Positions 14,348-22,065 of a stretch of DNA of 25,666 nt are shown in pieces. Within the stretch, counting starts at the first letter, position 1; every line of letters starts with the position of its first letter. The translations under genes were made by a program, and so were the position numbers. Origin of the DNA: a virus; IMG/VR virus record IMGVR_UViG_3300032285_000710, positions 1 to 25,666 of that record; one strand, written 5' to 3'. The notes under the pieces are model-generated. The model saw nothing but the letters and a program-made list of their open reading frames with translations, ran no database searches and was not told the DNA's origin.

Positions 14348-16240
14348 ATGCTCTACCTAGATTTTGAAACGCGCAGTACGTGCGACCTACGCGCCAAGGG
14401 CGTGTACAACTATGCTCAGGATATGTCGACGAAAGTCCTGTGCATGTCGTATGCGTTTGACGATGAAGACGTAGTGACGTGGGTGCCCACGGAGCAATTC
14501 CCTGAGCGCGTACGCAGTTACACCGGCCAGATCAGGGCGCACAACGCGGCGTTTGAGCGCTTGATTTTTTGGTACGTCTTACAAATAAATTTTAAACTTG
14601 AGCAGTTCTATTGCACTGCAACACAAGCCCGTGCCAACTGCGCGCCGGGCAGTCTGGAGGACGTTGGCCGCTTTGCTGGCGCGTCCATGAAGAAAGACCA
14701 CAGAGGCGCGCAACTCATTCGTCTGATGTGCGTGCCGCCATTTAAAGACTCGCCTGAACTGATGGCTGAGATGATTAAGTATTGCGAGCAAGACGTGCGC
14801 GCCATGCGTGCAATCAGCAAGGGCATGCGCGATCTGTCAGACGATGAACTACTCGACTATCACGTCAACGAACAGATCAACGACAAGGGCGTGCTAGTGG
14901 ACGTGCCGCTGTGCCACGCCGCAGTTAAGTACGCGTCGGACGAACTAATTGAGATCGAAGAAATTGTCAAGGAAGTGACCGAAGGCGCTATCACCAGCGT
15001 TCGCAGCCCCCGCATGCGTGAGTGGGTCTGGGATCGCGTGGATGAAGAAGCGCGCAAGCTGATGCAAAAAAACGACAAGGTCAGCATCGACAAAACCGTG
15101 AGAGCTAATCTTTTAAACTGTGATGGAGTACCACCTGATGTTCAAGAAGTCATTCAATGCGCAGACGACCTCTGGGCTTCGTCAGTCGCAAAATTCAGCA
15201 GACTTTCAGCTTTGGCAGATGAAGAAGATGAGCGAGTCCGAGGAGCGTTTGTATTTGCAGGCGGTTCAGCAACAGGACGCGCATCGTCCTACGGCGCCCA
15301 AGTCCACAACTTCACCCGAAAGTGCGCCGACGAACCCGATGATGTTAGGCACGCGATGGTCAGAGGGCACGCCATCGTGCCTCGGTATGGAAAGCGCGTT
15401 ACCGATGTACTTAAAGGAATGCTCAGACCCGCCATCATTCCCGCCGCAGGCAAGCATCTTGTGGTTGCCGACTGGGCGGCCATCGAAGCCCGCGTCAATC
15501 CGTGGCTTTCCGGACGAGGCGCCGATAAACTGGAACTATTCCGCACTGGGGAAGACGTCTATAAAGTTAACGCAGCCGCCACATTCAACTGCCGCGTTGA
15601 CGACGTCACCAAGGATCAGCGCCAGATCGGAAAAGTTCAGGAACTTGCTTGTGGTTTTGCTGGCGGTGTCGGCGCCTTCGCTGCTATGGGTCGGGCTTAT
15701 GGGATCAGTCTTCCTGAACCTGTTGCCAAACGCATGGTTGACGGTTGGCGGCGTGCTAATGGCTGGGCTGTTCCTTATTGGTCAGCACTTGAGGAATCGT
15801 ACACCCGAGCCATGAGAAACAAAGGGCGCGAATTCAAGGCTGGCCGTATAACATATTTATACGATGGCCTGCACCTATGGTATGCCCTACCCTCTGGTCG
15901 CATTTTGTGCTACCCCTATGCCAAATTGGAATCAGAGGGCGTTAGTTATGCCAAAGCGGCATGGAAGCCGGCGCAAGATGCAAAAGAATGGCCACGCGCC
16001 CGCCTGTGGAAAGGCTTGGCATGTGAAAATGTAACGCAGGCAGTGGCCAACGATCTGCTTCGCCACGCCTTGCGCCAACTCGACGACGTTGTGCTGCATG
16101 TGCATGATGAGATTGTGCTTGAGACGGCGAATCCAAACGCCGCAGAAGAATTAAAACGTGTGATGTGTACAGCGCCAGCATGGGCAGACGGCCTGCCCTT
16201 GAACGCTGAAGTAGAAACTATGAAAAGGTATGGCAAATGA
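14348..16240 (+). CDS. DNA polymerase, family A, with 3'-5' exonuclease
   Basis: A 630-residue replicative polymerase. The exonuclease motifs are intact: Exo I LDFETRS (Asp5, Glu7), Exo II AHNAAFE (residues 64-70) and Exo III YCEQDV (Tyr145, Asp149). Polymerase motif A reads VVADWAAIEARV (Asp at about 375), motif B RQIGKVQELACGF (about 424-437) and motif C VLHVHDEIVLE (about 582-592). Motif A has DWAAIE instead of the DYSxIE of cellular Pol I, a form common in phage enzymes. There is no 5'-3' exonuclease domain. The start at 14348 puts Exo I at residue 5, so little sequence can be missing, yet no Shine-Dalgarno is present. Its stop overlaps the primase start (ATGA). Confidence 0.94.
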   Translation: MLYLDFETRSTCDLRAKGVYNYAQDMSTKVLCMSYAFDDEDVVTWVPTEQFPERVRSYTGQIRAHNAAFERLIFWYVLQINFKLEQFYCTATQARANCAPGSLEDVGRFAGASMKKDHRGAQLIRLMCVPPFKDSPELMAEMIKYCEQDVRAMRAISKGMRDLSDDELLDYHVNEQINDKGVLVDVPLCHAAVKYASDELIEIEEIVKEVTEGAITSVRSPRMREWVWDRVDEEARKLMQKNDKVSIDKTVRANLLNCDGVPPDVQEVIQCADDLWASSVAKFSRLSALADEEDERVRGAFVFAGGSATGRASSYGAQVHNFTRKCADEPDDVRHAMVRGHAIVPRYGKRVTDVLKGMLRPAIIPAAGKHLVVADWAAIEARVNPWLSGRGADKLELFRTGEDVYKVNAAATFNCRVDDVTKDQRQIGKVQELACGFAGGVGAFAAMGRAYGISLPEPVAKRMVDGWRRANGWAVPYWSALEESYTRAMRNKGREFKAGRITYLYDGLHLWYALPSGRILCYPYAKLESEGVSYAKAAWKPAQDAKEWPRARLWKGLACENVTQAVANDLLRHALRQLDDVVLHVHDEIVLETANPNAAEELKRVMCTAPAWADGLPLNAEVETMKRYGK

Positions 16241-18525
16241 ATTTTCTTGATTTTTTAATTTCCTTGGCGCCCGAGGGTGAGACTGCGCTAATCGTGCGTC
16301 AAAAACCCATCGGCAAAGAACTGCAATTCCACGCAGACGGCGCGATCAAATGCACTTGGCCGGCTATGTTGCCCACCGCCAAAATCAAGCCCGACTGGGC
16401 GATTTACGGCAACACGGCCAGCTTCATTGTTGACCGCTTCAAAGATGGCCACGTGTCAGCCAGTGCCGCCAACTGTGAGTACGTGCTTGTCATGGTGCTT
16501 GACGACGTGGGCACCAAAGCGGCCATCCCGCCCTTAGAACCCACTTGGAAGATCGAAACGTCTGAAGGTTCATACCAATGGGGCTACGCCTTCTCAGAAC
16601 AGCCTACAAAGGCCGATTTCAGCGCGGCCATCAAAGCCATCGCCGACGCAGGTTACACCGACAAGGGCGCGATCAATGCTGTGCGCAATTTTCGCTTGCC
16701 CGGCTCGATTAACTTGAAGCCCGACCGCAATAACTTTGCGGCCAAGCTGGTGGAGTTTCACCCATCGCGTGATTTTACGCTTGACCAAATTTGTGACGCG
16801 CTTGGTGTTGTCCCCGCGTCTGCTGACTCAGTGGGCTTCAAGCCCATCCGCTTGTCAGACGATGGCGCTGACGATGTAATGGCGTGGCTCAGTAGCCAAG
16901 GTCTGCTGTTGTCTAAACCCAATCAAGAAGGCTGGGCTGGCGTGGTGTGCCCCAACTCAGCCGAGCATACCGACGGCAACCCTGAAGGCCGCTACATGCC
17001 CGCTAATCGCGCCTACTGCTGCCTGCATAGCCACTGCGTTGACTTTGGTTCTAGCGCGTTTCTCAAGTGGGTCGATGACAATGGCGGCCCTAAGCATGCG
17101 CCCGGCTTGCGTGATGAATTGCTAGCCTCGGCCATGGACGCAGCGCTTTCCAAACTGACGCCTACCGACATGTTCACCGACGACGCCGCCGCTGTGATCG
17201 CCGAGGTCGAGCGCAAAGAATTAGGCCGGATTGAAAAGGCGCAGTGGTATGAGCGCTTCGCCTACATTCAAGACGATGAGTCGTTTTTTGACATGCAAGA
17301 CCGCCGTGAAGTCAGCAGAAGCACATTTAACGCCTTGTACAGACACATCAAATGCAACTCGATTCACGGTAAGAACCCCAAGGTTGAGGCGTCTATTTGC
17401 TTTGACGAAAACCGCCAAAAACATGGCGCAAAAGCGCTGGTGGGCATCACTTATGCCGCCGGTGAGTCGGTCATTGTCGCCCGTGATGGCGACCTCTACG
17501 GCAACCGCTGGCGCGACGCGCGTCCTCCAGTGGCCGCCGGTGACATCACCCCATGGATGGATCACTGCAAAACCCTTGTGCCCGATCAGCGCGAGTTAGA
17601 TCACATCTTGAACGTGATGGCTTTTAAACTGCAGCACCCAAACGTCAAGATCAATCATGCCGTGTTACATGGCGGCGACCAAGGCTCAGGCAAAGACACC
17701 ATGTGGGCGCCGTTCATTTGGGCCGTGTGTGGCCCCCACCTTAAAAACCGTGGCCTGCTGGATAATGACACCATGAGCAGCCAATTTGGCTACGCTTTAG
17801 AGTCCGAGATTCTGATCTTGAATGAGTTGAAAGAACCCGACGCTAAAGAAAGGCGCGCGCTGGCCAATAAGTTGAAGCCTATTATTGCCGCGCCGCCTGA
17901 GATGCTGACAGTCAACCGTAAGGGCCTGCACCCCTACCAGATGGCAAACCGCGTGTTTGTGCTGGCCTTTTCCAATGACCCCGTGCCGATCTCGCTCGAC
18001 TCCCAAGACCGCCGGTGGATGTGCATTTGGTCGCATGCACCCCGTATGGCCGCCGACGCCGCCGCGCGCATGTGGGACTGGTACAAGGCCGGCGGGTTCG
18101 CCTCAATAGGCGCGTGGCTGCATGCCCGTGACGTCTCGGCCTTTAATCCGGGCGCTGCGCCTATGATGACCGAATTTAAATTGAACTTAGTTGAGCATGG
18201 CATGAGCATGGCTGAATCGTACCTTGTCGAGCTTATGCGCAATCGCTTGGGCGAGTTTTCTAAGGGCGTGGTAGCGTCCCCCTTCCATGCGCTTTGTGAC
18301 CGCGTGGCTGGCGCTGCGCCCGCTGGCGTTAAGGTGCCCCAGCCGGCCCTACTGCATGCGCTTAAAGAGGCTGGGTGGGTGGATCTTGGCCGCGTCGCCT
18401 CGGGTGACTTTCAAAGCAAAAAACACATGTTTTGCGCGCCAGAGATGGCCAGCCGGCCCAAATCAGAGCTGCGCCGCATGGTCGAGGATATACCGGCGCC
18501 GTTGGCCGTGCGCTTAGTGAAGTAA
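16237..18525 (+). CDS. Primase-helicase: AEP-like primase, zinc-binding region and SF3-type helicase (DUF5906-like)
   Basis: A 762-residue replication protein coupled to the polymerase gene. The N-terminal part has the primase-polymerase traits VMVLDDVG (Asp89, Asp90) and RLPGSINLKP (153-162). A CHC2-like cysteine/histidine set follows (Cys237, His243, Cys260/261, His263/Cys266), probably zinc binding. The C-terminal ATPase has Walker A GGDQGSGKDT (479-488), an acidic Walker B-like ILILNELKE (about 525-533) and the downstream VFVLAFSNDP and DRRWMCIW stretches typical of DUF5906/SF3 helicases. It should prime and unwind DNA, and proteins of this type can also bind the origin, as P4 alpha does. 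It is the last plus gene before a minus-strand terminator. Confidence 0.87.
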   Translation: MNFLDFLISLAPEGETALIVRQKPIGKELQFHADGAIKCTWPAMLPTAKIKPDWAIYGNTASFIVDRFKDGHVSASAANCEYVLVMVLDDVGTKAAIPPLEPTWKIETSEGSYQWGYAFSEQPTKADFSAAIKAIADAGYTDKGAINAVRNFRLPGSINLKPDRNNFAAKLVEFHPSRDFTLDQICDALGVVPASADSVGFKPIRLSDDGADDVMAWLSSQGLLLSKPNQEGWAGVVCPNSAEHTDGNPEGRYMPANRAYCCLHSHCVDFGSSAFLKWVDDNGGPKHAPGLRDELLASAMDAALSKLTPTDMFTDDAAAVIAEVERKELGRIEKAQWYERFAYIQDDESFFDMQDRREVSRSTFNALYRHIKCNSIHGKNPKVEASICFDENRQKHGAKALVGITYAAGESVIVARDGDLYGNRWRDARPPVAAGDITPWMDHCKTLVPDQRELDHILNVMAFKLQHPNVKINHAVLHGGDQGSGKDTMWAPFIWAVCGPHLKNRGLLDNDTMSSQFGYALESEILILNELKEPDAKERRALANKLKPIIAAPPEMLTVNRKGLHPYQMANRVFVLAFSNDPVPISLDSQDRRWMCIWSHAPRMAADAAARMWDWYKAGGFASIGAWLHARDVSAFNPGAAPMMTEFKLNLVEHGMSMAESYLVELMRNRLGEFSKGVVASPFHALCDRVAGAAPAGVKVPQPALLHALKEAGWVDLGRVASGDFQSKKHMFCAPEMASRPKSELRRMVEDIPAPLAVRLVK

Positions 18526-21013: not shown

Positions 21014-21042
21014 AGTGTAAACGATTCTTTTACAGTTTGCAA
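21014..21042 (-). promoter_or_regulatory. Sigma70-type promoter for the minus operon
   Basis: Minus-strand -35 TTGCAA (21042-21037) and -10 TACACT (21019-21014) are separated by exactly 17 bases; each matches consensus at four of six positions. Transcription would start near 21007 and give a 46-base leader before the ATG at 20961. The nearest iterons lie 44 bases upstream of the -35 box. Confidence 0.6.
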
Positions 21043-21085
21043 GGCACGCAAGCAAATAAATTGCAACTATGCAAAATTTGCATAA

Positions 21086-21472
21086 TTGGGTCATTTGGGT
21101 CATTGATTGGCCATGGAAAATAAACAAATGACCTAAGCGCCGAAGCGCGCCAATGCTAGAAAATTCTATGCTTTAGGTCATTTGGGTCATGGTTTCCAAT
21201 TAAGAAAATAAAAGATTTTGATATAAGGGTTAATACCTAGTAAATTGTGCACGCGTAAGAACGCGGCTCCGGCCACCGATTTTTATCGGGTGACAAAATG
21301 ACCCAAATGACCCAAAGAACCAAAACCCCTTGTTCCGTTATGTGGAACGTTTTGGGTCATTTGGGTCATACAAAAAACAATGACCCAAATGACCCAACGG
21401 CCGCCGGCTGGTGGCCATGCTGGCGCCAGCTTGCAATTTAAAACCGTGACCCAAATGACCCAAATGACCTAA
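21086..21472. repeat. Iteron array: 14 copies of a 9-bp unit TTGGGTCAT / ATGACCCAA
   Basis: Copies in plus orientation (TTGGGTCAT): 21086-21103 (two in tandem), 21173-21190 (two), 21352-21369 (two). In reverse (ATGACCCAA): 21128-21136 (one), 21298-21315 (two), 21380-21397 (two), 21446-21472 (three). Most are exact; 21128, 21173 and 21464 carry one shared change (ATGACCTAA), and 21446 begins with G. The tandem spacing is exactly 9 bp. Likely a binding array for a phage initiator, terminase small subunit or repressor. Confidence 0.92.
21352..21397. repeat. Perfect 18-bp inverted repeat made of iterons
   Basis: Two tandem iterons (21352-21369) and two reverse ones (21380-21397) form a perfect 18-bp inverted repeat around a 10-base A-rich loop (ACAAAAAACA). 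It could extrude as a cruciform or hold symmetrically arranged protein. Confidence 0.9.
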
Positions 21473-21578
21473 GGGCTGCCGACCGGTGGCCAAAAAGGCA
21501 TTTTGTTTTGAGGGGGGTGGGTAGGGCCGGCGGCTAAGGGCCAACGAAAACGTATGGGCCGTGAACAATTTTTTTAAA

Positions 21579-21607
21579 TATACAGTCACCGGCTTTATGT
21601 TTACAAT
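21579..21607 (+). promoter_or_regulatory. Candidate promoter for the terminase operon
   Basis: TATACA (21579-21584) and TACAAT (21602-21607) are 17 bases apart, matching four and five of six consensus positions. Predicted start is near 21614, giving a 23-base leader that includes the GGAG of terS. Late phage genes may instead need phage factors, so this is only moderate support. Confidence 0.4.
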
Positions 21608-21636: not shown

Positions 21637-22065
21637 ATGTTCTATTCAATACCATTCACACCGCGCAAGGTGCAAGCGACAGAGTCGCGCTTGAAAGCGG
21701 TGTACGACGCCGCCAAACTTGGCCTTAAAGGCGACTCACTGGCTTTGGCCGCCGGCATGCTGCCCACAGAATACCGACAACTCACGCAACTTGACCCCGT
21801 CGTTGAGATGGCCGCGCAAAAAGGCAAAGCAGACGCTGAAATAGAGATGGCCAAAGTTCTTAGAACCGCAGCCCTAGACGGCGACGCTAAGATGGCGCTA
21901 GAGATATTGAAGCACCAACACGGCTGGGTGGCCAAGCAGGCCATATCTGTCGAGGTGGATCAACGCATATCCATCACAGGCGCGCTGGCCGAGGCGGCTA
22001 AGAGGCTAGATGTGATCGACGTACAGGCCAAGGAGCAAGATGCAATCGACCGTATACAGCGCTGA
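21637..22065 (+). CDS. terS: Terminase small subunit
   Basis: A 142-residue protein. The ATG at 21637 is chosen because GGAG lies five bases before it; an in-frame GTG at 21616 is less likely. The N-terminal helix-turn-helix-like part (DAAKLGLKGDSLALAAGMLP) would bind the packaging site. The centre (AAQKGKADAEIEMAKVLRTA, then GDAKMALEILKHQHGW) is the helical oligomerisation region seen in phage small terminases. Directly upstream of, and overlapping, the large subunit. The iteron array immediately upstream is a possible DNA target for it. Confidence 0.8.
   Translation: MFYSIPFTPRKVQATESRLKAVYDAAKLGLKGDSLALAAGMLPTEYRQLTQLDPVVEMAAQKGKADAEIEMAKVLRTAALDGDAKMALEILKHQHGWVAKQAISVEVDQRISITGALAEAAKRLDVIDVQAKEQDAIDRIQR

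Follow-up and report, generated by a model that had tools for sequence, protein, structure and literature searches.

A dialect-varying iteron array beside the terminase genes of a podovirus group and its probable role as a replication origin recognized by a PrimPol-SF3 helicase

A 25,666-base virus record, analysed over its full length and referred to here as the window, contains an array of 14 nine-bp repeats (iterons) that very probably serves as a replication origin, with the iterons bound by the C-terminal winged helix of the phage's own PrimPol-SF3 helicase. The array, its layout, its conservation, its confinement to a single locus, the variant spellings of its unit (dialects) and the covariation of these spellings with the wing of the winged helix were established by computation, and origin function is the reading of these sequence data that we favor. 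The initial annotation had offered three roles for the array, namely a replication origin, a terminase binding site or a regulatory array for two divergent operons, and had left the binding protein unnamed. The single locus, the AT-rich core and the covariation with the PrimPol-helicase support the first role and leave the regulatory array with less support, and the missing binding protein is, by covariation, probably the primase-helicase encoded at 16237-18525, acting through its C-terminal winged helix.

Fourteen units of TTGGGTCAT, 10 exact and four with one mismatch, lie in seven clusters at 21086-21472. A unit scan and shuffled sequences confirmed the earlier description of 14 nine-bp copies, seven clusters and 9-bp tandem spacing. 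The period of tandem units is exactly 9 bp, and the whole window holds 22 matches with at most one mismatch to TTGGGTCAT vs. a mean of 5.2 and a maximum of 12 in dinucleotide shuffles (none of 100 shuffles reached 22). The remaining eight matches are isolated one-mismatch copies scattered outside the array. From left to right, the array begins with two exact plus-strand copies of TTGGGTCAT at a 9-bp period (pair 1, 21086-21103), followed by a single minus-strand unit, TTAGGTCAT (21128-21136), and a plus-strand pair composed of TTAGGTCAT and TTGGGTCAT (pair 2, 21173-21190), which forms the left border of an AT-rich spacer (21191-21297). The right border is a minus-strand pair (pair 3, 21298-21315), beyond which lie a plus-strand pair (pair 4, 21352-21369), a minus-strand pair inverted to it with 10 bp between the two (pair 5, 21380-21397) and a minus-strand triplet that reads TTGGGTCAC, TTGGGTCAT and TTAGGTCAT on that strand (21446-21472). 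The spacer separates the two unit sets by about 106 bp and is a candidate DNA unwinding element, judged from the GC profile and from comparison among dialects; GC content was 0.275 in 21160-21239 with a minimum of 0.23 per 60 bp, against a window mean of 0.52. AT-rich DNA had been reported to flank the repeats; the AT-richness stood, but it belongs to the spacer between the unit sets and not to the flanks in general.

The window is part of a podovirus genome whose near-full-length relatives measure 36-40 kb, and the phage group encodes its own terL as well as homologues of portal-region and virion proteins. A block of short genes runs leftward from the array, and terS (21637-22065, plus strand) and terL run rightward on its other side. 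The ATG of terS at 21637 lies 165 bp past the last unit, as first reported. The array starts 2561 bp past the stop of the primase gene (18525), with opposed genes between them, and the distance from primase stop to terS start had a median of 3085 bp among 105 loci.

An exact scan of IMG/VR with the doubled unit returned at least 120 stretches. Among the matches listed, 96 loci (window included) had a cluster of at least seven units, and in 94 of them the array lay directly upstream of a terS of the same podovirus group (56-100% identity). The recurring layout consists of (+ +) ... (+ +), the AT-rich spacer, (- -), (+ +), 10 bp, (- -) and finally a minus-strand group of two or three. All three main dialects kept an AT-rich core with an iteron set on each side; the median inner spacer was 106 bp in the dialect of the window and 97 and 91 bp in two others, and the lowest 50-bp GC content was 0.22-0.26, with 0.22 in the window dialect. 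The doubled unit, with up to two mismatches allowed, was confined to the array locus in all nine near-full-length records of the window dialect. DNA searches of isolated phages with the locus or with the array alone gave no match or weak, short fragments. Exact matches in bacterial genomes, mostly Saprospiraceae/Chitinophagales, were taken as unrelated. Long degenerate GGGTCATTT-like arrays with a spacing of about 8-10 bp were seen in L171, L173, L181, L187, and other contigs of these bacteria, on several contigs per genome; in L171, the one that was read, the repeat is degenerate, intergenic and roughly 10 bp long. These bacterial arrays are probably unrelated to the phage array.

Further loci were fetched by TerL and by primase, and these often had an array in the same place that was built of another unit: ATTGTCCACA, ATGACTCACA/ATGACCCACA, ATAGCCAACA, ATAGCCCACA, ATTGCCTACA, or ATGGCACACA. 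Spellings such as ATTGTCCACA, ATGACYCACA and ATAGCCAACA occur in close relatives, where array and layout are kept. Among named phages, an array of GTTTACAT was present in the relative MW202483, and repeats of the CCCACTGGG type in OR003940, which is more distant. The initial annotation had asked whether the unit stays between the two operons in related phages, and had set collinear relatives lacking the array against its reading; most relatives with enough upstream sequence kept an array in place, but many spelled a different unit. Across the main dialects the unit always opens with AT and closes with A.A (AT.....A.A). Three loci (L224, L232, and L265) had two unit types within one array, and in L020 a dialect A array core gives way toward terS to dialect B repeats (ATGACCCAAATGGTCCACATTGTCCACA), apparently a recombination junction within the proposed origin; L020 has a type A wing, in agreement with its core. 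A second repeated motif, AAGTTAGT/ACTAACTT, was observed beside the iterons in L229, L239, L244, L246, L249, L253, L262, and L265.

The spelling of the unit provided a label that could be followed on protein trees. The fewest dialect changes among 105 distinct loci were 41 for TerS, 28 for primase residues 1-300 and nine for primase residues 690-762. TerL, Pol and SSB needed 35, 25, and 19 changes (shuffled means of 41.8, 28.4, and 20.4); on matching sets of loci the primase C-terminus needed 10, 8, and 6. For o18614 the count was 10, compared with 2 for the primase C-terminus. In a sliding 48-residue scan the count was 30 at the N-terminus of the primase and dropped to six at residues 697-744, with about 41 on label-shuffled trees and 23-36 in windows of TerS. 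Polymerase, SSB, exonuclease and o18614 were each rejected as reader of the unit on the grounds that they tracked the dialect less well than the primase C-terminus.

The closeness of the array to terS, which it precedes by 165 bp in the window and also closely in the relatives, is in keeping with a packaging site where TerS would bind the iterons, as lambda terminase binds cosB, beside a cut site. The terminase role is nonetheless contradicted, because unit spelling varies freely against TerS, the 5' end of whose gene is so close: the 40-41 changes on the TerS tree approach the number for shuffled labels (40 vs. a mean of 45.7 and a minimum of 41). TerS is nearly unchanged across phages with different units, with 91-100% identity in its second and third 24-residue bins; its N-terminal third is nearly identical between close-clade dialects. 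A better packaging candidate lies nearer to terS, where a G-rich block (GGGGGG.GGGTAGGGCC) followed by AACAATTTTTT (21510-21588, plus strand) forms a consensus upstream of the gene that is conserved across dialects. This block is separate from the iterons and is a candidate packaging (cos/pac) site and/or late promoter. A packaging role for the iterons themselves is very unlikely, and terS, whose sequence does not track the unit, falls outside the mechanism proposed below.

The protein that did track the unit, the proposed initiator, is a 762-residue PrimPol-SF3 helicase (16237-18525, plus strand), recognized by DUF5906, DNA primase PHROGs, and profile and fold matches. Its SF3 helicase core spans residues 477-593 (17665-18015, plus strand; Pfam DUF5906), and the protein resembles D5-type helicases. 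The nearest solved relative was the NrS-1 polymerase (PDB 6k9c, 6lrb; profile E-value of 5e-11, fold E-value of 3e-12), and the fold search also recovered the AEP domain of the cyanophage S-2L PrimPol and PriRep1 with dsDNA. It belongs to the class of self-loading primase-helicases that start the replication of SaPI, PICI, and P4. AlphaFold2 topology and fold matches placed a predicted winged-helix domain, the proposed iteron reader, at about residues 677-749 (18265-18483, plus strand), with strands at 715-722 and 725-733 and a turn at 723-724 (mean pLDDT of 80). Fold searches with this domain returned generic winged helices (Z up to 6.7), with the P4 and SaPI domains not among the matches, an absence that carries no weight, and a sequence search of solved structures with the domain alone gave chance-level matches only.

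Within a close clade of 37 dialect A and 21 dialect B loci, seven columns (717, 720, 721, 723, 726, 731, and 739) split the dialects without exception. The first six lie in the wing hairpin, residues 715-733 (18379-18435, plus strand). The full-length predicted model places the variable residues in the wing loop, and the probable recognition helix (702-711) hardly differs between the two dialects of the clade; the wing is therefore likely to be the part that confers specificity. Residues and bases were compared at the 90 loci where one unit clearly predominated and the wing could be read. Residue 723 was Arg in 42 of 42 loci with C at base 9 of the unit, and Gly, Ala, or Ser in 47 of 47 with A at base 9; the sole pairing of Ser with T was found in L246 (unit ATTGTCCATA). 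Dialects move largely by recombination, so the independent events number about 10 rather than 90; when independent pairs were counted, the association held in every one, 10/10 using the primase-N tree (p = 0.002) and 11/11 using the TerS tree (p = 0.001). These comparisons suggest a code in which Gly723 would pair with ATGACCCAA and Arg723 with ATGACCCAC, although the arrays with two units and the hybrid L020 mean that it is not strictly one-to-one.

Recombination might also carry the array and the end of the primase gene together without any contact between them, since a distance of about 3 kb at most separates the two, and the tracking of dialect improves along the primase gene in the direction of the array. 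Genes nearer to the array, however, tracked the dialect worse than the primase C-terminus, as the counts for TerS (40) and o18614 show. Wing type and unit were shared even by phages with only about 62% primase identity, and the match between residue 723 and base 9 extended to all 90 loci compared. Such hitch-hiking is decidedly unlikely to account for the covariation.

Another alternative was an origin recognized chiefly by a host protein, for instance DnaA. The unit of dialect B, TTGTCCACA, differs by a single letter from the DnaA box TTATCCACA, which itself occurs once, without mismatch, in the array of L304, so that a contribution of host DnaA in dialect B is possible. The window dialect and dialects C and D, however, are unlike DnaA boxes, and the spelling follows the phage protein, which makes DnaA extremely unlikely as the main reader.

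The position of the array in a divergent control region would also suit an operator array that controls the early and late operons, with the primase-helicase or a different early gene product as binding protein and no origin involved. A TTGACA-16-TACAAT promoter (11/12; L036:4932-4959, minus strand) points toward the leftward early genes just outside the array of that locus, and promoter-like sites matching a loose pattern lie to the left of 37 of 91 arrays. An operator array is nevertheless unlikely: the covarying partner is a PrimPol-helicase and not a typical regulator, the units occur at a single locus while other promoters lack them, and an AT-rich core with symmetric iterons is conserved. 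By eye, a weaker version of the L036 promoter seems present in the window at about 21020-21060. Palindromes resembling LexA boxes (CTGTN8ACAG; TACTGTATATATATACAGTG) were found in 25 of 103 array regions vs. 0.7 expected; they occur in relatives such as L011, L029, and L053, are absent from the window and lie mostly at the distance where the AT-rich spacer is expected. The spacer of these relatives may contain a promoter or damage-responsive control.

As a replication origin, the array could function as follows. The C-terminal winged helix of the PrimPol-SF3 helicase would bind the 9-bp iterons, with the constant letters (AT.....A.A) probably read by conserved residues and the variable ones by the wing loop (residues 717-731). 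The two inverted iteron sets would seat helicase assemblies at either end of the 106-bp AT-rich spacer. This DNA would melt and admit the self-loading helicase, and the PrimPol domain would then prime in both directions. GC skew took no consistent turn at the array and gave the origin no support of its own. The analysis assigns a proposed origin role and a candidate initiator to a repeat array that had neither, a pairing that can be tested in vitro. A single phage clade supplies matched protein-DNA variants as a natural series, from which the recognition code of an SF3 initiator could be deduced one residue at a time. More tentatively, a widespread freshwater phage clade might keep a bank of interchangeable origin-initiator dialects (Arg723 reading C9; Gly, Ala, or Ser723 with A9). 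Selection would maintain these dialects as replication-compatibility groups, one conceivable benefit being escape from initiator hijacking by satellites or rival phages. We regard this reading as possible but less likely than not. The dialects would define which phages share replication machinery or lose it by robbery.

The proposed origin was compared with known systems. P4 alpha is a primase-helicase that initiates at short repeats (ori1/crr) via a C-terminal winged helix, and the phage system shares the primase-helicase, the short repeats and, in predicted topology only, a C-terminal winged helix. P4 uses two cis sites, in contrast to the single phage array, and no second crr-like site was found in nine of nine near-full-length records. 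The NrS-1 polymerase likewise joins a PrimPol to an SF3 helicase; among the abstracts listed for NrS-1, none describes an array or origin. Terminase sites of the cosB/pac type adjoin terminase genes, as the phage array does, but the phage unit shows no co-evolution of its spelling with TerS. Dispersed operators of the stoperator type have copies at many promoters, whereas the phage units occupy one locus (nine records and a window-wide scan). In SCCmec, the isolated C-terminal domain of the Cch2 helicase binds AAGTG repeats specifically (PMC7581432). Cch2 is similarly a D5-type helicase with a C-terminal domain as repeat reader, the role proposed here for the phage domain, but its three short direct repeats downstream of the gene are unlike the phage array in unit and layout. 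The C-terminal domain of SaPI Rep recognizes the origin iterons (PMC7581432), and in PICI origins an AT-rich region lies between two iteron sets (PMC6092414). The phage system resembles those of SaPI and PICI (PMC6092414, PMC7581432; PDB 7pds, PriRep1) in its self-loading helicase, here fused to an AEP primase, in the two iteron sets around an AT-rich region and in an initiator whose C-terminal domain sets iteron recognition, in the phage by covariation only. It differs in that the phage is no satellite island but a tailed podovirus that encodes its own terminase and virion proteins, and in that the array lies about 2.6 kb from the initiator gene, beside terS, rather than directly 3' of rep. 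It also differs in having 14 units of 9 bp and many interchangeable dialects in one clade. The phage array is probably an iteron origin of a known mechanistic kind; what is new is its setting and its arrangement, and it comes with a natural recognition code amenable to direct testing.
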